Positions 1-19,340 of a DNA stretch of 22,989 nucleotides are shown piece by piece. A model generated the notes under the pieces. That model saw only the letters and a program-made list of their open reading frames with translations. It ran no database searches and was not told where the DNA came from. Position 1 is the first letter of the stretch. The number at the start of each line of letters is the position of its first letter. The translations under genes and the position numbers were made by a program. The DNA comes from Tieghemiomyces parasiticus (taxonomy: Eukaryota > Kickxellomycota > Dimargaritomycetes > Dimargaritales > Dimargaritaceae), in the NCBI GenBank assembly GCA_027575765.1, contig JANBPT010000787.1:1-22989 (forward strand), in the 5' to 3' direction.

Positions 1-1317
1 TTCGAAGGCCCGATTGACCTCAAAAACCCCGACGCCTTCTTTATCGTTTACGAAGACTACGGGGCCGACCCGAACGTACATCGCTTCCAGACTGGGCCAG
101 ATACTATCTATTTCGGCCGACTGGTAAGTACCTACTCCGTCCTTGGCTGCATATGTGAGGACCATACCTACCTAGGCATTACTCGAATTCAAGGACATCA
201 GGTCTGTCTGGTGTGTCTGCCGTGCCAATTCAACCACACCTCATTAACACATCCGCCGGACAACACTGCCCTCTACGTCGGCCCCTTTTGTTCTACGTAT
301 TACCCACGTCACCCCTGCCCCTAGATCGCTCGTGGCAATCGGGAAGTCGTCCAGACCTATAATTTGAAAAAGCGGGCCTACCTAGGCACCACCTCCATGG
401 ACGCCGAACTGTCCCTGGTCATGGCTAACCAGGCCCTGGCCCGCCCAGGCGCGCTTGTATATGACCCCTTCGTTGGCACTGGTAGTTTTCTGCTGACCTG
501 CGCACACTTTGGGGCCTTCACCATGGGTTCCGACATTGACGGTCGGCAGATTCGAGGTAGCCGCAAGCCCAACACCTCCGGCATCCGTACCAACGTGACG
601 CAGTATAATCTGGGTCACCGCGTGCTGGATACGGTGGTGTTCGACTTGTGCCGCAACCCCTGGCGCGAGGCTGACGTCCCGCGCCCGGCTCCGGCTTCCG
701 GACGGGGCGGCCCCTGGTTCGACGCGATTGTCACCGACCCGCCCTACGGAGTCCGAGCTGGCGCTAAGCGTCTCGGTCGCAAAACCGGCCTGGTTCCGGA
801 GCACAGCTTTAAAGTGGTTGAAGGGACGATGAACCACCTCCGCCACGACTACTACCCACCCACCGTGCCGTACGAAATGTCAGAGGTCCTGACCGACCTC
901 CTGGAGTTTGCCGCGCGCCATCTGGTGGTTGGCGGTCGGTTAGTGTACTGGCTACCCACAATCGTTGACGAGTACACCCCGAATGAGGTCCCTACTCACC
1001 CTTGCCTGCAGCTGATGGCCAATAGCGAACAACCCTTCGGATCATGGAGTCGGCGGCTCATCACCATGGAGAAGACCCGGGACTGGGAACCGATCCTGGA
1101 TAGGGCCACCCCGCATTATGTAGTCCCACCCGCCCAAACGGCGGCTCGGGCGAGCGCAATGGTGGCGTCGACAGATGACAGCCAAACCGTGGCTGAGAAT
1201 GTTGAACCTTCTTCTGATGCGGCCTCTGAGGAGGTATCAACTCCCAAGTCACAGGCAGGACATTTTAATTTCCGCGAAAAGTACTTTGCCAAACCCGACG
1301 AGACCTCCCCACAGTAA
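1..1317 (+). CDS. TRM11: tRNA (guanine-N2)-methyltransferase TRM11, 5'-truncated by window edge
   Basis: Catalytic subunit of the Trm11-Trm112 complex, which makes N2-methylguanosine at position 10 of cytoplasmic tRNAs. The visible exons are 1..123 (41 codons, phase 0, donor GTAAGTAC) and 325..1317 (acceptor CTAG at 321-324, stop TAA at 1315-1317). Joined, they read in frame as ...YFGRL-IARGNREVV... The SAM-binding motif I, DPFVGTGSF, lies at 463-489, followed by an acidic SDIDGRQIRG motif. The N2-guanine methyltransferase catalytic motif DPPYG is at 736-750. The phrase KKRAYLGTTSMDAELSL just upstream is typical of Trm11. The THUMP-containing N-terminal half must lie to the left of the window. 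The last 70 or so residues are Ser/Thr/Glu-rich and probably disordered. An AATAAA at 1426-1431 is a likely poly(A) signal, and the gene converges with the SANT gene. The family call is secure; the full length is unknown. Confidence 0.93.
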
Positions 1318-1425
1318 AAACTAATAATCGCTAGGATGGTGAACGTTGTCCATGGGGTAGCGGTTTCACCGCCGCATTGTATAGATCACTATGTGCTGCC
1401 GCGTCTAAAAGTCTAAATCGTCTGG

Positions 1426-1431
1426 AATAAA
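1426..1431 (+). terminator. Poly(A) signal for TRM11
   Basis: A canonical AATAAA hexamer lies 109 bases downstream of the TRM11 stop codon, inside the 199-base convergent gap before the SANT gene stop at 1517. Confidence 0.5.
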
Positions 1432-1516
1432 ATTACATTTATAACATCTACGGGTCGAGTAAGGTATGGCCAAACAATTAAGAGCCGTAGGCGGTAAGGG
1501 TCCTCGGTACTTGGTT

Positions 1517-2077
1517 CTAATCAATCTCAATGTTGTCCTCCGCTACGGCCGCCGTTGCCGCCGAAGGTTCGCTAGCGAGGATGGCCTGCAGGACCTGGCC
1601 GTCGTCGTCGTAGACCAGGCACCCATTCTTCCACATGTCGAACCGCTGGGCGATTTCCCGGTTACGGGCGTTCTCCCTGAGTATAGCTGCCTCGTCACCC
1701 TTCCAATCCTTGTACAGCTGCATGTTCTGGCGGCCAATCAGGCGGATGGTCTTGATGCGGAGGTCGTTGGGACTCCACCCGGGCAGCAACTCCTCGCTGA
1801 TGGCGCGGAAGTGGCCGATACCGTGGGTGGAGATGCCCTGGATAAGTAGGCTGCGTTCACGGTCGGTCCACTTGCGTGCTCCCCCGCCGTGCCCGTCGGC
1901 GTCGGGCCGCGGGGCGTCCTTGGGCGGGCGGAAGTAGTCCTGGTTGAGAGTGCCGTCCGGGTGGATAATGTTGCGGGTGACTTCAAACTCGGGCCGTACA
2001 CAGAACTGGAGGCGCATCTGACGGACCCACTCCTGTTTGGTCCGGAAGAGTTCGGTCGGGTCGTTGCTGGCGGCCAT
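1517..2077 (-). CDS. Small SANT/Myb-domain protein, function unknown
   Basis: Single-exon gene for 186 aa. The start at 2077 was chosen because the minus strand reads CCACC-ATG-GCC there. The frame stays open upstream to 2230, with another Met at 2113, but that extension is Pro-rich and looks like leader sequence. Residues 1-55 hold a conserved-looking segment (ELFRTKQEWVRQMRLQF). An acidic/Gly-rich linker follows, then one SANT/Myb-type helical repeat at about 69-118, starting at KWTDRERSLL with aromatic positions W70, F90 and W101. A charged helix runs on to W149, and the tail is acidic and Ala-rich. A single repeat without a clear basic recognition helix could bind histone tails or proteins rather than DNA. 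The match is to a domain class; I do not recognise a named orthologue. It converges with TRM11 and its 5' side faces the U6 gene. Confidence 0.75.
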   Translation of the reverse strand: MAASNDPTELFRTKQEWVRQMRLQFCVRPEFEVTRNIIHPDGTLNQDYFRPPKDAPRPDADGHGGGARKWTDRERSLLIQGISTHGIGHFRAISEELLPGWSPNDLRIKTIRLIGRQNMQLYKDWKGDEAAILRENARNREIAQRFDMWKNGCLVYDDDGQVLQAILASEPSAATAAVAEDNIEID

Positions 2078-2480
2078 GGTGGAAGGGTTGGCGGACGGCG
2101 TGTCGGCGAGCATCGTGGCGGGAAGGAGGGGGGTCGGTGGGCCGCGGAGGCAATGGGAGAGCGTAATGCAGAAGGCACCAATAAGCGGAATGCAAATAGC
2201 CAGGGGGTAGCTGACAGGGTGGGTGGGCAAGGTGGCTATGGAACAGGGTCCCTGGCCGTGCCCACCACGTCTACAGTAGAGACCGAGGAGTTGGGGCGGT
2301 CCAAACTCGGAGACATCAGCGGTGGTGTTGTGTCAATACCGCCTCCCCCCTAAAAAAAAGAATAACAATGGGCGGGTCCGCAACACCGGGGGCTAGCAGT
2401 CAGGTGACCACTGCACCGTGCGGAAGACCCCTCGTACCATCAATCCCACAAGTCAGCAGAGACCCCGTCTTATCATAGAA
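2078..2480. other. Intergenic region between SANT gene and U6 gene
   Basis: This divergent control region of about 400 bases includes the leader of the SANT gene. The first part is GC-rich. A C-rich tract and an A-rich tract (TAAAAAAAAG) lie near 2343-2362. I see no further gene; open frames here are antisense to the SANT leader. Confidence 0.6.
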
Positions 2481-2487
2481 TATATAT
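2481..2487 (+). promoter_or_regulatory. TATA box of the U6 snRNA gene (pol III type)
   Basis: TATATAT begins 26 bases before the expected first nucleotide of U6 at about 2507. This spacing is standard for TATA-dependent pol III U6 promoters. I found no convincing downstream B box; GTTCAA at 2732-2737 is only a partial match. Confidence 0.75.
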
Positions 2488-2506
2488 GGATTTTCCCCAT
2501 ACCCTA

Positions 2507-2528
2507 GTGTCACTTAGTGACACTTGAA

Positions 2529-2559
<31 letters not shown>

Positions 2560-2618
2560 GGCCCCTGCACAAGGATGACACGTAAATCTTGAGTGGATAC
2601 CTCTACGGAGGAAGTTTT
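2507..2618 (+). ncRNA. U6: U6 spliceosomal snRNA
   Basis: The sequence from about 2530 to 2580 is nearly identical to the universally conserved U6 core. It holds the ACAGAGA box (2543-2549), which pairs with the 5' splice site, the catalytic AGC triad (2555-2557), and the CCCCTGCACAAGGATGACACG stretch that forms the U4/U6 pairing region and the internal stem-loop. The 5' hairpin is an 8-bp perfect stem (2506-2513 with 2517-2524) with a three-base loop. The 3' tail carries a CCTC-TACG-GAGG hairpin (2600-2611) just before a nine-T pol III terminator at 2615-2623. There is no intron in the conserved core, unlike S. pombe U6. The 5' end is inferred from the TATA distance and the stem, and the 3' end from the T-run; both may be off by a few bases. 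Mature length is about 110 nt, normal for fungi. Confidence 0.96.
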
Positions 2619-2623
2619 TTTTT
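2615..2623 (+). terminator. Pol III oligo-T terminator of U6
   Basis: Nine consecutive T residues directly follow the U6 3' hairpin. This is a strong pol III termination signal and gives the 3' oligo-U bound by La and Lsm2-8. Confidence 0.85.
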
Positions 2624-3722
2624 CGGTTTACCTCGCCGATTATTGTGGATGGCACCATGGCCAACTGTAACTCTGATATCCATGCTCTGCAAGCGGTCAG
2701 CCTCTCCTTTCAGCGAACTGGGCCCTTGCCGTTCAATGTATACGGCTGGTACTTCTTGTCGGCTCACACGCACTTGCAATGGAATGCCTTGTTTAACATC
2801 CTGATTAACCAGTGCCTGATGTTGCTGCCTTTCATGGGTATCACTTGGTATCTATCAATCAGCATGGCGTCCATGAGCCATCATAATTTCGGAGAACAAG
2901 GACAAGCCTGCTTGACTGTCTTCCTAATGATAAACGGCGTGCGTCAAGATGCCCTCCAGTTTAGTCACAGTTTTAGAGTACAGGGTTGAAGTTGAAGGAT
3001 CTTTGTGGTGGATAGTGGAGCCTCTCATGGTGACGATACTTGTAATAGGTAGTACCAGCTGGCGGCAGTGATCATGCCAAAGGCCTTAGTATTCAGTTAT
3101 GGAGAAGAACGCCCCCCCTAACATAATTCAGCGCCTGCACGACAACTTATGTATGTCACCTCGGTACGTAATAGGTGGGAACTAGCTAACTTATTGGCCG
3201 GAGGAGGCCAAGAGAAAATCTAACAGAGTGGTTTGCAAGGCCGACCACCTCTCTATCTTGGATTGTCGTTGGGGCAATGCAGGCGGAGTACCCCATAAAA
3301 AAGACACCACTACATTCCTGTGGGCCCTGTGCTGTAGCTCAGCACTTGATTACCCAGTGCACTGGAAGAGTTCCCACGGAATAGTACTTTCTGATTGGCA
3401 GGCTAGATGGTTGGCAGTCACAGGCTCATGGTAGGGGTGGTGGGAAGGGCAGTGGTAATACCGGGCGGACAGTCCGCCCTAGCCTGTAGTGGCTTCCCCG
3501 CAACCCTGCCCCCACAACCTCGACCTCGGCTCTAGGCTGTCTTGGACCACGACTTTCTAGAGCGTATTATTTATTCTCTTTCCGCCTTAAAGTACCCGCA
3601 TCCACGTCCTTCTCTTCCTAGACCCTCCTCTATCTTGTACAAGCCTCTCATTCCTTGACACGTTTCTTATGCTGAAGCTGTCCTCCACCTCTATCATCCT
3701 TTCTTAGCCAGCATTGCCCACC
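2624..3722. other. 1.1-kb intergenic region between U6 and isovaleryl-CoA dehydrogenase
   Basis: No gene is recognisable. Open frames at 2645-2989 and 3228-3434 have no family resemblance and no supporting structure. The last 130 bases before the next ATG are pyrimidine-rich, as is common in fungal promoters. A CGG/CCG inverted repeat at 3463-3479 is listed separately. Confidence 0.6.
3463..3479. promoter_or_regulatory. Inverted repeat containing CGG-N5-CCG, candidate Zn2Cys6 factor site
   Basis: GGGCGGAC and GTCCGCCC form a perfect 8-bp inverted repeat around a single A, with CGG and CCG triplets five bases apart. Everted or inverted CGG half-sites are the known recognition pattern of dimeric fungal Zn(II)2Cys6 activators. 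It lies about 245 bases upstream of the dehydrogenase ATG. Assignment as an operator is inference. Confidence 0.35.
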
Positions 3723-4982
3723 ATGAATCTCCATATATTGCGGGTCGCACGCCCCATCGCCGCCCAGCCCCTGCGCAAGCCGGCGATAGCCACCCTGCGG
3801 GCCGCCCTGTCCACCTACAACAACCCTGTTGCCGGTCTGACCGAGTCCCAGATGGAATTCCGCGAGTCGGCGCACGGCTTCGCGCAGCGAGAGGTGGCGG
3901 ACCGAGCGGCCCAGATCGATCGGGACAATGCCTTTCCACGTGACCTCTGGCCAAAGATGGGCCAAATGGGCTTACTGGGTGTGACAGTCGCCGAGGAGTA
4001 CGGCGGCTTGGGTCTGGGCTACTTTGAACACGTTCTGGCCATGGAGGCCATCAGCCAGGCCTCTGGGGCGGTGGGACTTAGCTACGGTGCCCACTCCAAC
4101 CTATGTGTGAACCAAATTCACCGGAACGGTACCGCGGCCCAGAAGGAACAGTACCTACCTAAACTAGTCAGCGGCGAACACGTGGGGGCTCTGGCCATGA
4201 GTGAGGCCGGGTCCGGATCGGACGTCGTGTCCATGCGGCTGACAGCCGAGCATCGCGGGGACGGAACGTTCGTGCTGAATGGCACAAAGTACTGGATTAC
4301 CAACGGACCCGATGCCGACGTACTGGTTGTCTACGCCAAGACGGACCTCCAGGCGGGTTCGAAGGGGATCACGGCGTTCCTGGTGGAGCGGGGGATGCCC
4401 GGCTTTACCACGATGCCCAAGTTGGATAAGCTGGGAATGCGCGGGTCCAGTACTTGTGAGTTAGTGTTTGACAACTGCGTAGTGCCCGCCGAGAACGTAC
4501 TGGGCAAGGTTGGCGGCGGCGTCTACGTGCTCATGAGCGGCCTAGACCTCGAGCGCCTGGTCCTGGCCGGGGGCCCCCTGGGACTCATGCAGGCCGCACT
4601 GGACTGTGCCGTCCCGTACGTCCACCAGCGCCACCAGTTCAATGTTCCTGTGGGCCACTTCCAGCTCATGCAAGGGAAGATGGCCGACATGTATGTCAAG
4701 TCCAACGCAGCCCGGGCCTACACCTACGCCGTAGCCCGCGCCTGTGATGCCGGCCACGTTAGCCGGAAGGACTGCGCTGGCGTGATCCTTTACTCTGCCG
4801 AACGTGCCACCGAGGTCGCCCTGGACGCCATCCAGTGTCTCGGCGGCAGTGGATACGTTAATGATAACCCCACCGGCCGGATTCTCCGTGACGCAAAGCT
4901 CTATGAGATTGGCGCCGGCACCTCCGAAATCCGGCGGATGCTGATCGGCCGCGAGTTCAATAACGAGTGGCGTGACGTTTGA
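3723..4982 (+). CDS. IVD: Isovaleryl-CoA dehydrogenase, mitochondrial
   Basis: FAD-dependent acyl-CoA dehydrogenase oxidising isovaleryl-CoA to 3-methylcrotonyl-CoA in leucine breakdown in the mitochondrial matrix, passing electrons to ETF. It is a single-exon gene for 419 aa, the usual IVD length. The ATG at 3723 follows CCCACC. Residues 1-35 contain five basic and no acidic residues, fitting a targeting presequence that ends near RAALS. Acyl-CoA dehydrogenase signature 1 ([10 protein letters not shown]) is at 158-167 and signature 2 starts at QCLGGSGY (371-378). The IVD-specific catalytic base is present: Glu277 in [13 protein letters not shown]. The position that is catalytic Glu in most relatives (YEGT) is Ala398 here, in GAGTSE. 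That swap separates IVD from short- and medium-chain enzymes. S. cerevisiae lacks this enzyme, but many filamentous fungi have it. No defects seen. Confidence 0.96.
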
Positions 4983-5483
4983 ACATCAGCCGCGACACCC
5001 ACAACAAGCCTCCCCTTTCCAGATTATCACCTCCCGAGATTTAGTCTACGGCTGGCCACCATAGTTGCACGGGTGGTGTGTGCTCATTATGGTTCTCATT
5101 ACAGGGTGAATAAATGGATGATTGATATCTAATCCTCTCCCCCCCCCCTTGCAAACGAGATGTGACGCCTTCAAGTTAGCAGGACCGGTGGGTTGTGGTT
5201 GACCCGAGTCACCTTTACCCACAGTGGGGAGGGGTTGAGTTCTACAGATTAACCAGGAGGGAGACTGTAGGTCATGGTGGACATTTTGAGAACCGGTCGC
5301 TCAGTCCTACTTCAGTTGGCCTGAGAGGGTATATGGGGCCTTTTGCATCACTACCTTCCACATATCCGTCGTCCTCATCTCATTTGTCACCAGCTTTCTC
5401 CTTCTGTGGTCTCATTGCCGGTGCTGCCACTCTCATTACCATCCCCCCTTTTCATGTCCTACTCTATCGTCTGAGGTACTGAC
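4983..5483. other. Intergenic region between IVD and the KPWE-motif gene
   Basis: It contains the IVD poly(A) signal AATAAA at 5109-5114, 127 bases past the stop, and a run of ten C at 5139-5148. The part from about 5340 to 5470 is pyrimidine-rich and is probably the promoter and leader of the next gene. An open frame at 5195-5482 has no recognisable content. Confidence 0.55.
5109..5114 (+). terminator. Poly(A) signal for IVD
   Basis: AATAAA hexamer 127 bases downstream of the IVD stop codon, the only canonical copy in this gap. Confidence 0.5.
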
Positions 5484-6423
5484 ATGGACCGACCCGACCA
5501 AGCCGAGCTGGAAGCAACCTATCGTCAATATGACGAGTTCGATTTCGACCGAGACCTAGACTTTCGGGTAGGTGGTCTAGGGAATGCTCTTAACCAAGAT
5601 GGGCTAGCTGAATCTGCTTCACACCCGAGGCCGCACAGTACCTTAAGCCTGTTCCTGAATGCTTAGCAGAATCGCACCAACTCTGTATTTTTTTGATGGT
5701 TCCTGCTCCACCAGACGGGCTTGGCCCAACTCTTCCCGGGAGTGAACCTGGCCAGCATCCCAGCTGCAGATCTTGCCAAAGCCCGGTGGTTCTATTTTAC
5801 TAAGTACGTACCTGCTGACCACAGTAAGGAAGCCGAGGACCCGCACTTTAATATCTGCTTCATCATCTAGATTATTTCAGCTTGTTTCCCTGCCATTAAT
5901 TAACCACAAAGCCCCCCTACTCTGTGTATATATAACCACCCAAATACGGCATCTACCAGGCAAGTCCAGCCTTTCGATTACGCTGCCTATCTGGCATGGA
6001 AGCGGGGAGAAAGCTCTCCTCCAGCCATAGTAACCCCTGTCGTAGCGGCGACCATGGTTCTCCCGGGCGATACCGAGGATGCCCCGTCTAAGCCAAAGGG
6101 GTTTGCTGAACTGTGTGATTTTATACTGACAGGCAAGCCGGTTCCAGGTAGGTGCTCACTGTCCATGGCTGCAGTGCCTATAATGATTATATAATATGAG
6201 CCGTTTCCCAACTTGAGTTGCGTGCAATGTCTTCAGTGCCTAAAGGTTAAGTCGTATCCGCCCACATCTGCTTATGATTAACCATGGCAAACCCACGGGT
6301 CCCGGCACTGGACATGGCATAGGTATCCGGGATATACCCGAGACCATCAGTGATGCACCCGCTGCTAGCTCCCAGCTCAAACCGCGCCGTAAACCTTGGG
6401 AAAAGGGCCCCATCACCGACTAA
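5484..6423 (+). CDS. PEX39: KPWE-motif protein of the PEX39/DUF5572 family (PEX7-linked peroxisomal import), four exons
   Basis: Exons 5484..5567, 5715..5803, 5960..6147 and 6323..6423 join in frame to 153 aa. Donors are GTAGGT, GTACGT and GTAGGT; acceptors are CAG, CAG and TAG. The N-terminus is acidic (YDEFDFDRDLDFR). Residues 29-72 form a hydrophobic/aromatic segment including ARWFYFTK and FDYAAYLAWKRG. The family signature follows: F106-x2-L-x3-I, then GKPVPGI (116-122) with R-D-I-P next, a short linker, and the basic KPRRKPWE ending at E147, six residues from the C-terminus. This order (F..L...I..G...PGI..IP, then R-K-P-W-E) is that of the fungal and animal KPWE family, which includes human C6orf226 and yeast Yjr012c. 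These were recently named PEX39, with the KPWE motif contacting PEX7 and aiding import of PTS2 proteins. There is no membrane segment or PTS1. The family call is strong; function rests on the family. Confidence 0.85.
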
Positions 6424-10889: not shown

Positions 10890-13189
10890 CTACCCGCCCA
10901 TCTTGCCGAGCAGTTCGTTGCAGATGCTGGCCAGGTCGGCGTTTTCCTGGCTCTTGGTCTCGATACTGGCCTCGAGGGTCTTTATCTTGGCCTCGGCTTT
11001 CGACAACTGGATCTTCATCAGCGACACGTCCTTGTCTTTCTGGAGCCGCAGTTTGTTAATCTCTTCGTTGGCCTCCTCAATCTTTTGCTCGGCATGCTTC
11101 TTGAGGGTCTCAAAGTTACCGGTCGCCGTCTCCACATCCGCCTTGAGCGCTTCAATCTCGGCTTGGAGTCCGGTTTCCGTCATCACCAGTCGCTCGTTCT
11201 CATCCTGCCGTTCATTTAACCGCTGGGTGATCTCATCCAGTGACTTTTGCAACGTCTCTATGTTCTCCTGGGATACCAGTTTCTCCGCCTCGACCTCACC
11301 GAGGGCTGTGTTGAACTTGTCCTGGTCGTCAATGTTGCGTTCTAGCGGATAAGGTAGGGTGTTGGAAATAGGCAGTAATTGAGAGAGAGAGAGAGAGAGA
11401 GAGAGTTGTTGGTTAAAGGGAAGAGGGTGGAGCAGAGCTTTGGCTCAGTAGACCATGGCGGTCGTCCCTTCGTTGATATCCTGTGGCCCTTACCGTTTAA
11501 ATGCGTTACCAGGGCCGAGTACTCGTTAACAATCTCGGTCAGTTCCCGTTTCTCTTGGCGTTCGGTCAGTAGCACCTTTTGTAACTCCTGCAGTTCACGC
11601 CTGAACGACTCCTCTTTGGCCTTGAACTATGGGCGAATATGTGTATATATATATATATGGTGGAAGGACGAGGTGAGGGGAAGTAATAAAAAGATTACTC
11701 AAGCTGAAGGGTTAGATTTGATGTATGGTCTGGAACTCGCGTCCTGGCGAAACGACTCGGACGGAGATGGCGCGATTTACGAGGCCCGGATATACCAAGG
11801 CCATGGCCCATTCTCCCCACCTACCTTGTTCTCGGCGTGTCGCTTCACCTCCTCCATCTCTAAATAACTATACTTGGGGATCTTATCTGGCGACACAAAG
11901 TCATTGCGCACGGTATCCAAGAGTGTTGGGGCAGGCGTCACAGGGATCAACCACGTGGGTGGGTACTGGCGAGCGGATCCTTGGTTGGCGGCTAGGGGGA
12001 CGAAGCGGCCGCGGGCTGGGGCAGGGGTTTTGGCTAGGAGATCGATCGAGGGTGCAGTGTCTGCAGAACCCGTTGGTACGGCGGTCAGGACACCCGATTG
12101 GCTGCCACGTATTGGCGAGCCTTCTGGGCTAGAAGGGGCGGACAGGAGGGCCTGCATGCCCGTTGCAAGTTTGGCCGGTGCGGGAGTCTGAAACAGTATG
12201 AGCGGCGGGGGCTCCTCCCCGGTTTGGTCGGCGATCGGGGAGGCGTCGTGAGAGCTGGCCACTGGCCCTAGCAGCGAGTCACGGATTCGGGCCTGCTGGG
12301 CCGGGGTGGCGTTAAGCAGGGCATGGCTGAGGTTGGGATTCAACACGTAGGCCGTGCGGGCCTGCTTGCGGGGCGTCTTCAGGGCCAGTTCCTCGTCCTC
12401 GTCCTGGCGGATATTGACCACCTTTGGCTCCCCCGGCGACGAATGGTCGGACCCTTCGGTGTCCATGGCCCGCGGGGAAGAGTTGAGGGCTGGTTCAGCG
12501 GCCAGAGATACCTCATGTACTTCCGTGCTGTTAAGGAGCACAGTGGAGTCGTTAAGAAGGAGGGTAGCGGGTATGGCAGTGGGGACTGGGGCGGATGGCA
12601 TCTCCTCGTCCATAGCCGTACTCTCCGCACGTGGTGGAGAGGCTGAAACCGTGATCTCGGTTTCACCTTCCGATTCGTCACTCTCGTCGCCGAACGTGTG
12701 GATCGTATCGGGGGCCAAAGAAAACCGGACATTGGACTTGCGACGCTGGACCTTGGCATCCCGGAGCTTGGCCTCAGCCTGCCGCCGGACCTCCAAGGCG
12801 TCCTCTATCGCTGCGGGTGGGCTCGCCGGGGTCGGGGCCACCTCGGCGTAGTCGGTGGTGGGTTGGCTGATGACGCTTGTCTCAATGAGTACGTCTTCCG
12901 GTGCGGTCACGGACACCTGGACAGGCTCGGGAGATGGGCTGGGCTCGCTCATGTCCATCCGGTCCGGGTCCGAGAGCTCGGTGGCTGAATCGGCCCCTGC
13001 GACTGGGTCACTGGCGGGCCCACTGTCGTGCTGCATAGCCCACTCATTGGGGATGGAGAAGTCGCAGGTACGTCGCCGGTGGATCTTGGTAGTGGTGAAG
13101 ACGATATCTGCCGTTGGCGTAGTTGTGGTACTAGTCGTAGGTTCCTGTTCCTGCGCCTCGGGCGACGTTGGAGGTTTTTCTTCCAGCAT
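10890..13189 (-). CDS. TACC-domain mitotic spindle protein, three exons
   Basis: Exons 13189..11825, 11626..11494 and 11341..10890 join in frame to 649 aa; donors are GTAGGT and GTAAGG, acceptors TAG and TAG. The ATG at 13189 has the CCACC context; the open frame upstream to 13594 is leader. Residues 1-440 are Ser/Thr/Pro/Glu-rich and probably disordered, with CDK-type sites TPRK (272-275) and SPDK (433-436). From about 440 to 649 the protein is one long coiled coil. Its end, from LKKHAEQKIEEANEEI to ASICNELLGKM, closely follows the conserved C-terminus of TACC proteins (human TACC1-3, fission yeast Alp7/Mia1). TACC proteins load XMAP215/ch-TOG-type microtubule polymerases at centrosomes, spindle pole bodies and spindles. 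The domain is about 195 aa, normal for the family. Introns carry a GA tract and a TA tract. Divergent from the CIP2A-like gene, 890 bases away. Confidence 0.9.
11381..11405. repeat. GA dinucleotide microsatellite in TACC intron 2
   Basis: Twelve and a half GA units on the plus strand, read as a CT-rich tract in the transcript, upstream of the intron 2 acceptor at 11342. It could serve as a long polypyrimidine tract. Confidence 0.9.
11644..11658. repeat. TA dinucleotide microsatellite in TACC intron 1
   Basis: A 15-base alternating TA tract close to the acceptor side of intron 1 (11627-11824). Confidence 0.85.
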
Positions 13190-14079
13190 GGTGGATATGG
13201 GCAGGAGCGACAGGAGCCTGGAAGAGTGGGAGAGAAAGAGAAGTGATAACAACGGGGCAAGTGGTTGACGATGGAATGAGTCGGCGCTGGGTGGGGATGC
13301 GTTATGCAGGCTAAGCTGAAGCTTTGGCGGGCGGAGTGTGAAATGGTAGGGTGGTTTAAGGAGAGCGGGATTGGGCGCAAGGTTGGGCACTGATCCTGGG
13401 TAAATTTTGGTTATGGAATAGTTTTGGCAATTATGTGGTCGGAGTATGCCGAGTCGCCATGACAGGTGGTGTCCACGGCGCCGTCCAGGTCCATCAGAGT
13501 CGACTGGTGGGTTTTCCGCTCGGGTCACATTGTTTTGTTTTGGCCTTGGGCCGCACCTCCTTATTGTTTTTTTCAAGCTGGTTAGGTCGCCCAATGACTT
13601 GCAGCTTCCGTATACCTACAGTGGAGCCGGTTGAGACGGGGACCTGAACGGTAGTGCTGACACCCTACCACACAGGGGCGCTGCTTGGAAGGCAGAGATT
13701 ATCCCATGGGAAGAAATCCGGGCGCGATGGATTAGTCGCCACCGGCTTGGGCGGGCGGACCTGGAAATGGCAAAATGCCCGGTAGGTAGGCCCCACACAC
13801 CCTTTGGCAGATGCCCAGGTCAAATTGGCCGCAGCAGGGTGTCCGTGGCCCAAGTGTTCGCCGCAGCGCCGTTGTACCTGGCTTCTTTATACCTGGCCAA
13901 TAATTTGCCAAGCGAAGTTTGGCCCTCCGTTCCAGCTTGAAGTCTAACCTCACTTTCGTCACCTATTCAACGCTTTCGAGGCCCGTGGTCTCTTATTCGC
14001 TTATCCAGCCCCGCACTCCCCTTACCAGGTCACTATAGAATCCCCGTGCTCTCTCGCTCGGCCCCATCCGTTCCCAACG
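13190..14079. other. Divergent promoter region between TACC and CIP2A-like genes
   Basis: An 890-base gap holding both 5' leaders. The TACC side (13190-13390) is purine-rich on the plus strand, i.e. pyrimidine-rich on the TACC sense strand. Short open frames on both strands (for example 13435-13647 and 13616-13962) have no family features. I see no TATA box for either gene. Confidence 0.6.
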
Positions 14080-17000
14080 ATGCTCCAAGATGCCGGGGAG
14101 CTCGGCGTGGGCCTCAGCCAGTTCCTTTTACTCACTCAGAAGCTGACACAGCCATCCAACACGACCCTAACCCACCTGGTATCTGTTCTACGGGTAAGTC
14201 TAGTCGGTCGGTAGCCAAGCGTCTGGAGCAGGAACCCTACGGAGACCGGCCATTGCGGCGCCTTGGAAGCCTCGAGGGCGAGCCGACACGGGTCTAATAT
14301 TGCCACCATTAAACCTGCTACCTGCACCCTCGCTTTCGTATTCAGGCGCTGCTCTCACTCTTGGAAGATGTCCAGGTCTCCCGGTACCTCTGTTGTGTGC
14401 CGCCGGCCCACTGGTACGCGGCCTTACCATCGTCAACCGCTACTCAGCCCGCCCACGTCTGGGTGGTGCGTCTACTCAACCAGGTCTTGTTACCGCCAGC
14501 TATGCAAGGTTCCAATACCGGGGCATCCAGCCGGTCCATCGCCAATGCTACCCTCGCTCTGCTCTGCTGTCCAACTCTGGCAGTCGTTTACGAGGACATT
14601 CCGCCCACCGAGGCCGGGGCCCTTCTTGATCTGCTCTGCCGCCGGGCGGTCGATACCAGTCTTTGCCCTACTGCTTTAGACCAGTACCACCACCTCGTGG
14701 TCCTCCTGTTGTCTCGTGCGGGAATTCCGTTCCGGGGCACTTCGACCGCCCAGCGGGCCTTTTTGGAGTTTTGCATCGAGCAGCTCATGGGCACCCCGGT
14801 GGGCGCTGCTCCCGGGAAGGACGGCACCCCCCGGTCAACCGGATCGAGTCCGACGCACGCCACCGATCCAGACGCACCGTACCGATACTATCGGCTCTGG
14901 ATCCGCCTCCTCGACCCCCCGTGTGATGGATTCGACCGAGCCGTCCGCCGCTTGGAGGCACACCGCCGCACGGCTCTATATCGCTGCCTACTAACTCGCG
15001 TCAACCCGGCCCACTCAACCGTGACAATCCTAGCGCTCCGCTGCCTCGATATTCTCCTCCGCGATGATCCACTCGATGCAAAGGTCTTTAACCCAGCCAA
15101 CGCCCGCGAAACACTGCGGCTGGCATTTCACATGATTACCGCCACCCCAAGCGGTGCTCGAAGGGAGGACTTGGTTGCCGCGGTGGCCGTTGTTAGTACG
15201 CTATTACGACGGCCGGGTCTACGCAGCGTCATTGCGGACCACCCGCCTGTGCTCAAGGCTGTCTACAAGGCGGTAGCGTATCAGTGGCGGGAATCGGAGC
15301 ACCAAAACGAAGTCTACCTCCTTCTGGCTGAACTGCTAGAGCGCGAAGTATTTAGCACCGAGCTGATCGACCTGATCTACGAGTACAACCTAGTGCCCAC
15401 CGCTTTAGCGTCCGTGCGCCGGTTCCTCGGTACATGTCATCCCGAGACGAGCACGTTTAGCCCCGTTGATTTTTTAACTCAGGAGGAGCCAGTCTGGTGG
15501 GCGCCGGCGCAACTGCCCCATGCCTTTCGACTCTTGAATGCGGTGGCTCGTCTAAACAGTGAGAAGGTCTCAAGCAGCCCCCACCTACCTGCCCTACAGA
15601 GCGAAATTGGCGAGGTAGCAGGGCTAGCCTTAGCCGCCCTTCTGAGATGGAAACCAGCGCTCCCTACACCGGTTTTGCCACCACAGCTGCTACTACTGCA
15701 ACTGACACCCCTGGTGGTTTGTGTGGGCCAAACAATGCTTGGCAGCCGCTTCATTATCCCTACCTTGGTGTCCTCTCTTCCGCAGGCCGTCCAGGTCCTG
15801 CAATCATTCGGGGAGTTACCGGATACCAAACATCCGGACGCGCCTCCTGCCGTCGACTGTCCAACTGCCGGTCTGGCGCAGTCTGCTTACCTTGCTACTG
15901 CACTGTGGGGCCTCAATTTCGTTGATCGGTACACCCACGTGGCAACTTGCCCGGACTTGGTCTCCCTCGTAAGTGATAATGGAAAGGAACCCAGCTTGTG
16001 GCGAGTCGATTAGGACCAGGATTATGTGCGGTAGTCTGCGTAATTTAACCAAACAGCCTTCAATTGCAACCTTAACCCGTGCATCTACAAACCAGGACCC
16101 AAGTCTGCTAGAGCGGCCGGAAATTGAGCACCTGTGGCTGGAGCTGGCTTCTAACCTCGCCGTCAGCCCTCCGCATGCCCTACTGGACGATTTCCTTGTT
16201 ACCCGTTTCCCTGGAAGCATTACCCAGTAAGAGTTGCCCGCGGTGGATTAACACTTGGGCCAAATGAAACCCTGGTGGTGGTGGTTTGCGTGAATTACTG
16301 GAAGCCACTTGGCCCTGTCATGATTCTAACTTGATGTTCAAGCTTGGTTCACTTTCTACTTCCTCAATCACACTGTGCAGTGCAATCGGCCGCATGCAGG
16401 CCTTCTCCATTAGCCAGAGGCGGAGGCGGCTCGAGCAGACTACTCAGCTGGGTAGGTTATGAACAGCCGTTTCAAGCTGGCTGCCGGCGACGATAGTAGT
16501 CACTGGTGGACCGAAATATGTAGCCCATGGCCGTTTGAATTAACCCCCCCCCCCACGTATTTGACCACCAATTCGCTTGATCTTACCCTCCTTGTCGTGG
16601 ATACCATAGAAGCCATACAGCATTCAAAGGTAGGTCATGTATAAGTAAGAATCATGTTCTTCGTACTCTGTGTTTCAGCCTTAACGGGCCCATTCATGCT
16701 GTTGACTAACAGATGGGCCAATGGCTATTGTAACTACATACCGTCTCGTTTAATCAGTACCGTGCTGAAATCGAACGACTCAATGTTGATCTGGAGCGAA
16801 AACTGACAATTGAAGAATCTCAGCGCCAACAGGTAAGTTCTAAAGTTCGGTAACCCTTAATAGGCCCACCTTTTAAACGTATTTCAAAAATGGATTTTTG
16901 ACGAGTCATTGCTTTATCTTTCATCACCTTTCTAATGCCATTCACCAGAACCAACAACTCGAATTAGAAAACTGTCGCGTCAAGGCGGAGCTGGAATCCA

Positions 17001-18542
17001 TCCGCAGCACGGCAGAGATGTCAGATACCGCGTTGGCCAAGCACAGAGAACGGATAATGCAGCTCACTCAGGACAACCGCGAACTGACGGCGGCCAAGGG
17101 CAGCCTGGACAGACAATGTCGTGAGCTTACGGCGGCTCTCGAGGACCAGAAGCTCCAGGCAAAAGACGCCGTCCGAAATTATGAGGATGAACAGCAGGAG
17201 AGGCAAATATTGGAAGAGGAACAGGAATTGCAGCAGGAGAGGTATGTAAATATCTACCGTAGTCGGATGAACAAGTCACACACAGTTCAGCATTCACACT
17301 GGCTTCTGAGGCCATACACGACTAACCTGACGTTATCATCGCCTACACCTACATGTTACATTCTTCAGGTGGAGCCGTACCGTCCGGGAACTGCGTCATG
17401 TGACGGGCCAGTTGTCGGAGACAGAGGCGAGCCTCAAGGCGCGTTGCACCGAAAACCAGGAACAAGGTGCCGAAATCGAGAGGTGAGTAGTCCCCCGTGC
17501 TTCCGAGCCAGGCAGTCTAAATAGGTCAAATCTTGGTCTATATTTGCTTGGATGGGTCCCCGAACCTCGACGATGGACATACCGACTCTTGCAAACTAAG
17601 ACCTAGGATCTTGCTACGTACCACCTTCTCCCATACACCTAGACTGAAATCCGATCTTGATCGGCTGGCTCGCCTAGAGGCACAACTTGAGGATGGTAAG
17701 TCATATAGCCAAAATTAAACAGTCACGGGGCCGGTCCAGAGCCCGACCGCTGCTAACTGTATTCCCCACTCATTTATATTTCCTCCATGAATTCACCCTA
17801 TAGTGCAGGCGCAACTGGATGAGCAGCGAAACCTGGCCCAAGCCAAGACGCGGGAAGCCACACGTCTCTCGCAAGCCGTGTACACTGCTCAAACTGAAAG
17901 CCAAAGTAATGAAAAGCGCTGCAGCGAACTCCAGACGCAGGTATGTTATCAGCGGTTGGGTCGGCCGGTCACTAGTTAATATCGTTTGGAATCACCGCCA
18001 CAAGGACAACGACACCTCACCCCTCTTAACTCTCTGCTAACCTGAACTCCGCACTACACTCTTGCGTCCTTAACCCTGCAACGAAATCACAGTTGGACGA
18101 GGTAAAGGACACGCTACAACGCGAGAGCCAGCTGGTCATTCACTACCAGGAGTTGACGCGACATCAACAGGGCCAGCTCGTCCAACACGAACGGATCGCC
18201 GATATGGTTGTGGAAATGTACGCCAAGCGTCCCCGGTTTACCTCCGTGACCACCGGTCCAACCTCCATCGATACTGGTTGCCCTCCTGCCCATGTCATCC
18301 GCTCCTTCGAAACAACCACCCCTCACCCGCACTTAGCCACCACCGCCATAACCGTAAGCCGATCCAACCACCACGGCCTGGGTACGGATTCACCCATATT
18401 CGACATACCCTTCATCCGTGGTAGTGATGGTGGCCGTTTTAACCATGGGTATCGCCCCGGTCACTTTTCGGACACCTTGGTCCCACTGGCTACCGACAAC
18501 GGTAGAGAGGATGAATTCGGCCAACCAACTCAACAACTCTAA
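14080..18542 (+). CDS. CIP2A-like armadillo/coiled-coil protein, 11 exons
   Basis: Exons: 14080..14193, 14346..15968, 16057..16226, 16381..16451, 16610..16629, 16758..16832, 16949..17241, 17369..17482, 17643..17695, 17804..17940, 18093..18542. They total 3120 bases in one frame, 1039 aa, all with GT donors and AG acceptors. Residues 1 to about 635 are Leu/Ala-rich helical repeats of armadillo type, broken by a disordered Gly/Ser/Pro insert near 195-220. Residues about 650-925 are a coiled coil (ERLNVDLERKL, MQLTQDNRELTAAKG, LKSDLDRLARLEAQLED). The last 110 are Thr/His/Pro-rich. This layout matches CIP2A (human about 905 aa). The ARM segment AKVFNPANARETLRLAFHMI (283-302) resembles, from memory, the corresponding human segment in K-x-F...N...T..L.F..I. 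Animal CIP2A inhibits PP2A-B56 and tethers TOPBP1 in mitosis. The least certain exons are 4 and 5. Alternative: an unrelated ARM/coiled-coil protein. Confidence 0.7.
16544..16554 (+). repeat. Run of 11 C in intron 4 of the CIP2A-like gene
   Basis: An eleven-base poly-C tract about 55 bases upstream of the acceptor of the 20-base exon at 16610. It may act as part of a distant polypyrimidine tract, or be a simple homopolymer. Confidence 0.8.
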
Positions 18543-18849: not shown

Positions 18850-19176
18850 TTAGTAGTTGCAAATGATGAAGCTGCCGTTGGGGTAGCACTTGGTGCCGGT
18901 GGGGCATGCAAAGCTGACGGGGGAACCCCAATCGCAGACGGTGAAGCCTTCAGCATAGGAGCCGCCACAGGCCATGGTACCGGACAAGCAGTCCTCCGAA
19001 GTGGGCGATGGGAGCGGTTCCACCGAGATGGAAGCCGCGATCAGGGTGTCGTCGGACGGGGGAGGGGACGAAGTCGAATCAGTGTCGCGCTTGTGCGGGT
19101 GGGCAACGACGGGAGAGGCCAGGAGGGCCATAGCGGCGACAGCGGCGACGAGAAGGCGGGCGGTGGTGAACTGCAT
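18850..19176 (-). CDS. Small secreted CBM19-like (chitin-binding) peptide
   Basis: An intronless gene for 108 aa. The ATG at 19176 has the context CCGTCACC-ATG. Residues 1-25 are a classic signal peptide (Arg7, long Ala/Leu/Val core, cleavage expected at VVA-HP). A Lys-Arg pair at 29-30 is a Kex2 site, so the mature chain may start at Asp31. Residues 31-60 are a Ser/Thr/Pro-rich linker, probably O-glycosylated. Residues 63-106 hold six cysteines (63, 70, 81, 91, 97, 106), enough for three disulfides. The pattern C-x6-C-x10-C-x9-C-x5-C-x8-C, with FTVCDWG, CPTGTKCYPNG and FIIC, is that of CBM19 chitin-binding modules of fungal chitinases and small effectors. There is no catalytic domain, so it would act as a free wall-binding protein or effector. 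Convergent with the CIP2A-like gene. Confidence 0.8.
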   Translation of the reverse strand: MQFTTARLLVAAVAAMALLASPVVAHPHKRDTDSTSSPPPSDDTLIAASISVEPLPSPTSEDCLSGTMACGGSYAEGFTVCDWGSPVSFACPTGTKCYPNGSFIICNY

Positions 19177-19340
19177 GGTGACGGTTGAAAGCTTAGAGAT
19201 GTGGAGCTAAGGAAGGGGAGGGGTAGTGGATAGTTGGGCTTCAAGGTGGCCGAAGAGGTATAGAGGTAGTGATCTGACGGGTGCGGTCGAGTTGAGTTGT
19301 TTGATGTTGAGTTGGAACTGGTGGTCGGTTGGTCATCTAT

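Follow-up and report, generated by a model that had tools for sequence, protein, structure and literature searches.

CIP2A is known mainly from animals and has been studied mainly as a human oncoprotein; it helps to hold broken chromosomes together in cell division. Its B56-binding head is described as highly conserved in animals, from human to lancelet, in one report (PMC9974998). In human TOPBP1, segments 774–798 and 813–892 are reported to mediate the binding of CIP2A, whose armadillo (ARM) domain in isolation binds this region directly (De Marco Zompit et al., PMC9288427). Here we analyse a gene on the forward strand (14080–18542) of a 22,989-nucleotide stretch of DNA, hereafter the window, which is contig C1128 (JANBPT010000787.1) of the 46.5 Mb assembly of Tieghemiomyces parasiticus, a parasitic early-branching fungus placed in the Dimargaritales (Kickxellomycotina). 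The gene was deposited as ‘hypothetical protein IWQ60_009432’ (P0001, 969 amino acids). CIP2A is its best-supported identity, because CIP2A is the top match of the ARM part in Pfam and among PDB sequences, the locus is the sole genome-wide match to the CIP2A segment, the domain layout agrees and a TopBP1 partner carries a corresponding motif. We consider it probable that the gene belongs to the CIP2A family, as a divergent fungal member.

The 1026-residue product has a predicted ARM-type solenoid (residues 1–622), followed by a coiled coil (approximately 650–900) and then a ∼100-residue tail. Residues 651–900 contain no proline, comprise 38–50% E/K/R/Q in each 50-residue block and show heptad periodicity; the proline-free stretch of mammalian CIP2A is 601–850. 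The coiled coil is therefore C-terminal to the ARM part, an arrangement taken as a mark of CIP2A membership, and the order given in the original prediction, here an ARM-like part followed by a long coiled coil, is borne out.

A second copy of the gene, IWQ60_008024 (P0002, 998 amino acids), lies on contig C890 (30,247 bases) and is 96% identical across exon 2; the surrounding DNA is ∼94% identical over the 9 kb that align. Near-identical pairs were found in the assembly for the CIP2A-like locus, B56, the TopBP1-like gene, Uso1 and many ARM and HEAT genes, and the assembly seems to contain two haplotypes. Since B56, the TopBP1-like gene and Uso1 are also paired, the two CIP2A-like copies are best read as two haplotypes.

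The sequence searches with the ARM part pointed to CIP2A in both directions. For exon 2, the only family reported by Pfam was CIP2A_N (PF21044, gathering score 26.3 bits; E 0.24), and among PDB sequences the top match was CIP2A (5UFL, E 0.12). With residues 213–470 the values improved to E 0.076 for CIP2A_N (0.075 in the other haplotype) and E 0.039 for CIP2A, again the best PDB match. In the reverse direction, human CIP2A 188–311 matched no place in the genome other than this locus and its haplotype copy (E 0.029). The same two loci led the five matches of full-length mammalian CIP2A (P0003; E 0.64 and 0.66). Exon 2 and residues 213–470 are thus reciprocal best matches with animal CIP2A, all at sub-threshold values; the CIP2A_N scores on the ARM part were 10.4–12.1 bits, under the gathering score.

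The similarity is most clearly seen where fungal residues 248–334 align with CIP2A 188–271. Pairwise BLASTP of this segment gave E 3e-5, with 24 of the 90 columns identical, and hhalign of the fungal protein against CIP2A gave P-values of 0.0028, 0.0022 and 0.0012. The ungapped BLOSUM62 score of the segment was 75. Of 514 other open frames, drawn from the window and from further loci of this genome and including some of its ARM and HEAT proteins, the best scored 25; the match therefore exceeds chance. Segment-by-segment alignment comprised nine tests. For CIP2A 188–250, none of the 2000 shuffles reached the observed score. A weaker match joined CIP2A 47–124 to fungal residues 104–185 (p 0.0115 for segment 40–190, one of the nine tests) at an offset of 57–61, collinear with the offset of 60 for the main segment. 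The ARM part (1–622) scored 7.3 bits, more than any of 1501 shuffled or reversed sequences, the best of which reached −1.7. Ranked by whole-sequence score, the full-length protein fell outside the 12 best that were listed, its best domain scoring 5.7. One alignment underlies most of these tests, and they are not mutually independent. The similarity that the original prediction had placed near residues 270–320 stands, with its position moved to 248–308 and extending to 334.

Partly independent support for the kinship came from comparing the two haplotypes. Residues 229–378 carried 16 synonymous differences and one nonsynonymous, compared to 60 and 48 in the rest of the protein (Fisher p 0.0024). 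Among the windows compared, the CIP2A-matching stretch showed the strongest constraint. The corresponding window of mammalian CIP2A ranked 45th of 505 ARM windows for invariance.

Several results weigh against a CIP2A identity. Every database match is sub-threshold, the clear similarity covers only ∼60–85 of the ∼620 ARM residues, and the hhalign probability was 11–20%. The reciprocal best match fails with full-length or profile queries: CIP2A_N was unreported at E ≤ 10 in Pfam for full-length P0001, P0002 or residues 1–635, and a two-row profile (A3) did not find CIP2A in the PDB. The remaining segment tests gave p of 0.16–0.85; they covered the N-terminal 60 residues of CIP2A (two tests), 250–330, 330–480, 480–565 and, in two further tests, its C-terminal end. 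In a diagonal test only CIP2A 188–243 stood out; near-collinear offsets ranked third for 244–275 and fifth for 40–110, and no collinear diagonal ranked first for any other ARM segment. The coiled coil gave no CIP2A-specific match. A candidate C-terminal motif shared with CIP2A was not supported, the best match of the CIP2A end having fallen elsewhere in the coiled coil. On two mammalian CIP2A profiles the Uso1 protein of the genome scored 4.2 (5.4) bits, a modest gap to the 7.4 (9.3) bits seen here. A protein database search with the fungal query returned only the protein itself and its second haplotype; such searches need shared exact 5-residue words, one of them scored only candidates sharing most words, and distant fungal orthologues could be missed.

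The structure models were no more specific. AlphaFold2 rendered exon 2 alone (residues 39–579) as all-helical with a mean predicted local distance difference test score (pLDDT) of 53.6 and a predicted template modelling score of 0.46, and a sub-domain model had a mean pLDDT of 65.3; each was built from two near-identical sequences and is of low confidence. Foldseek with the exon 2 model returned mostly ARM solenoids, with importin alpha, beta-catenin and designed ARM proteins also found by VIA-align. Generic ARM proteins were favoured over CIP2A, which ranked 35th (Foldseek) and 17th (VIA-align) for exon 2; for the sub-domain model CIP2A was not among the 50 matches listed, which shows neither presence nor absence. 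The models thus suggest only an ARM solenoid. The outcome that the original prediction had named as speaking against it, generic armadillo or myosin-like matches only, did not appear in sequence searches with the ARM part; full-length profile searches returned only coiled-coil or unrelated families (in NCBIfam, only SMC/Rad50-type coiled coils) and the fold matches were mostly generic. The label ‘CIP2A-like’ is partly supported, with CIP2A as the best identity and the weakness of the matches as given above.

The putative kinship rests mainly on one segment. The strongest alternative is a fungal protein of ARM solenoid and coiled coil that has no kinship to CIP2A and whose resemblance to it in one or two repeats arose by chance or through general ARM constraints. 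The sub-threshold E-values, the confinement of the similarity mainly to about two repeats, the generic fold matches and the closeness of Uso1 on the CIP2A profiles all suit such a protein. We nevertheless regard it as somewhat unlikely, given that the other frames, sampled ARM and HEAT proteins included, reached no more than one third of the segment score, CIP2A was the top family in both search directions, the matched stretch is the most constrained among those compared, and the genome encodes a TopBP1 with the partner motif.

This TopBP1-like gene lies on contig C587 (69122–74368; locus 1123–6369) and has an animal-like layout of BRCT domains, which we numbered by analogy with animal TOPBP1, the gene being read unspliced. 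It matched TOPBP1 structures with E 8e-22 over the first two BRCT domains and 6e-14 further on, and more BRCT domains follow in the next open frame. The linker from the BRCT5-like to the BRCT6-like domain contains QFDLTGALSDLKTPTRPN, which aligned with RFDVKDALAALETPGRPS of human TOPBP1. The F of the human motif is presumably residue 837, counting back from the C-terminus (total length 1522). F837-D838-V839 is reportedly the key triplet of TOPBP1 (Adam et al. 2021). Shuffling the linker 20,000 times never reached the score of the motif with the 20-residue query; with the longer human linker as query, p was 0.005. The motif scored 47, compared to 35 for the best other frame, and is identical in the second haplotype. 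A fungal TopBP1 that combines an animal-like layout with a counterpart of the motif by which human TOPBP1 docks CIP2A appears to be new, and would provide partly independent support for the CIP2A kinship. A paper search for the human letters and for the role of the triplet found nothing, which counts against this line of argument.

We propose that the product is a divergent CIP2A and that it works in mitosis as a TopBP1 tether; for the tether step alone we consider the case evenly poised. The coiled coil would probably pair the ARM head, and the head would bind the linker between the BRCT5-like and BRCT6-like domains of the fungal TopBP1 through QFDLTGALSDLKTPTRP. In mitosis, the CIP2A-like protein and TopBP1 would then bridge broken chromosome ends until repair, as CIP2A and TOPBP1 do in human cells. 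More tentatively, the tether may predate the divergence of animals and fungi, with both halves kept here, the slowly evolving ARM block forming the TopBP1 groove, and tethering rather than B56 inhibition being the ancestral function. Control of PP2A-B56 is a possible second function because a B56 gene is present in the genome. Against this, the B56-binding head (human CIP2A residues 1–43) has no clear counterpart: the first 60 CIP2A residues gave p 0.62 against fungal residues 1–80 and 0.55 against the ARM part.

Another reading is that the protein descends from CIP2A but has taken on a different role, such as that of a PP2A-B56 regulator or a scaffold of the microtubule-organizing centre, and does not bind TopBP1; this is compatible with the data but unlikely in our judgement. 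The presence of B56, a TACC protein as the divergent neighbour and the divergence of most of the ARM surface would fit it, but the linker motif has been kept in TopBP1 and the B56-binding head is among the parts that cannot be recognized.

The 11 exons of the original prediction and their single frame stand, with splice sites present in both haplotypes; its length of 1039 amino acids does not, the frame encoding 1026. GT..AG is kept at all 10 introns in the second haplotype and the C890 copy has no internal stop. Over the whole gene the synonymous divergence (dS) was 0.106 and the nonsynonymous divergence (dN) 0.022 (dN/dS 0.20). The gene is real, and it is shown to be under purifying selection. 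P0001 is shorter as 171 nucleotides within exon 2 are taken out in frame as an intron; the stretch looks coding, because five of its six haplotype changes are at third codon positions. An alternative model with an exon at 16467–16629 (model B, 1050 amino acids) was set aside, as this stretch varies like an intron between haplotypes, with 12 changes in 143 bases (4, 5 and 3 by codon position). Since these changes ignore codon position, 16381–16451 plus 16610–16629 was preferred, the combination also used by the deposited models. An artefact joining exons from different genes is very improbable: the models do vary in length (969, 998, 1026 and 1050 amino acids), but the frame and splice sites are conserved in both haplotypes at the low dN/dS, and most exons are common to the two deposited models and ours.

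A Uso1/p115 vesicle tether, which is alike in gross architecture and length and which provides the next best protein of the genome on the mammalian CIP2A profiles, has a negligible chance of being the answer, and orthology to it is refuted, because Uso1_p115_head is encoded elsewhere, at C1232 (E 1.7e-72) and C383 (E 2.1e-72), and was unreported at E ≤ 10 for P0001, P0002 and residues 1–635.

Further searches for relatives of the CIP2A-like gene added little. A human CIP2A query of the protein database gave 820 matches, of which the best 120 were mammals as far as named, with no invertebrate or protist CIP2A among them. No relative was found in pattern scans of viral contigs and of bacterial and archaeal genome contigs, nor in phage records. 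A PF21044 genome search scored no candidates and detected 0 of 14 controls, and a reversed-segment control and a 40-residue TOPBP1 piece each scored no candidates; these three are uninformative. Literature searches on fungal CIP2A and on the deep evolution of the family turned up no account of such a protein in the titles and abstract openings listed.

Table 1. Coordinates in the window of the CIP2A-like gene, its parts and its divergent neighbour
Feature	Position	Strand	Evidence
Exon 1, residues 1–38	14080..14193	+	ATG at 14080; GT donor in both haplotypes
Exon 2, residues 39–579, most of the ARM domain	14346..15968	+	AlphaFold2 all-helical, mean pLDDT 53.6
Residues 248–334, match to CIP2A 188–271	14973..15233	+	Sequence searches; 10 synonymous and 0 nonsynonymous differences between haplotypes
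171 nucleotides, intron in P0001, judged coding here	15615..15785	+	5 of 6 differences at third positions
Exon 3, end of the ARM part	16096..16226	+	Splice sites in both haplotypes
Exon 4, linker between ARM part and coiled coil	16381..16451	+	Splice sites, pattern of haplotype changes
Exon 5, 20-nucleotide micro-exon	16610..16629	+	Splice sites in both haplotypes
Exon 6, start of the coiled coil	16758..16832	+	Gene model, composition
Exon 7, coiled coil	16949..17241	+	Gene model, composition
Exon 8, coiled coil	17369..17482	+	Gene model, composition
Exon 9, coiled coil	17643..17695	+	Gene model, composition
Exon 10, coiled coil	17804..17940	+	Gene model, composition
Exon 11, last part of the coiled coil plus ∼100-residue tail, stop 18540–18542	18093..18542	+	Gene model, haplotype comparison
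TACC-family gene, divergent neighbour upstream	10890..13189	-	Pfam TACC_C E 1e-21; TACC3 in PDB E 1.7e-10

The TACC proteins are a mitotic family, and this member and the CIP2A-like gene are arranged head to head, with ∼890 bp from one ATG to the other. The second haplotype has the same order to the extent that the DNA aligns. A 60-base stretch between the two genes (13535–13594) is inverted in the second haplotype. Elsewhere in the window, Pfam identified a UPF0020-type methyltransferase (325–1317, +), an acyl-CoA dehydrogenase (3708–4982, +) and a cytochrome P450 (7825–9546, −); a Myb-like protein (1517–2332, −) matched just under the cut-off. A U6 spliceosomal RNA lies at 2509–2619 (+; 83.4 bits, E 3.6e-20). 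A short open reading frame at 18850–19206 (−) has, by eye, a signal-peptide-like start and several cysteines and may encode a small secreted protein; it matched no Pfam family above the cut-off.

If the fungal gene is a CIP2A and was inherited vertically, it follows that the CIP2A family predates the animal–fungus split, and its origin would move back to the common ancestor of the two. This would help to tell the ancestral job of CIP2A from animal additions, would point to fungi beyond the yeast models for the study of mitotic break tethering, and would explain the CIP2A-docking-like motif in the fungal TopBP1.

Among known systems, the ARM solenoids of importin alpha, beta-catenin and the designed ARM proteins are of the same class according to Foldseek and VIA-align, and these structures are not known to have a coiled-coil tail. 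The frames of the genome that we take to be of importin-alpha type, going by their family, show no notable sequence similarity (25 compared to 75 on the segment). Uso1/p115 likewise joins an ARM-like head to a coiled coil, and the fungal gene has no reported Uso1_p115_head match. CIP2A (mammalian P0003; human 5UFL; Pfam PF21044) has the same order of ARM head and coiled coil and a comparable length (906 residues, 1026 in the fungal protein); its N-terminal ARM-repeat domain spans roughly 560 residues. Similarity is weak or absent in the remaining ARM head, in the head domain (1–43) and in the coiled coil, and the fungal protein differs from CIP2A in having a low-complexity stretch at approximately residues 187–216 and its tail past the coiled coil.

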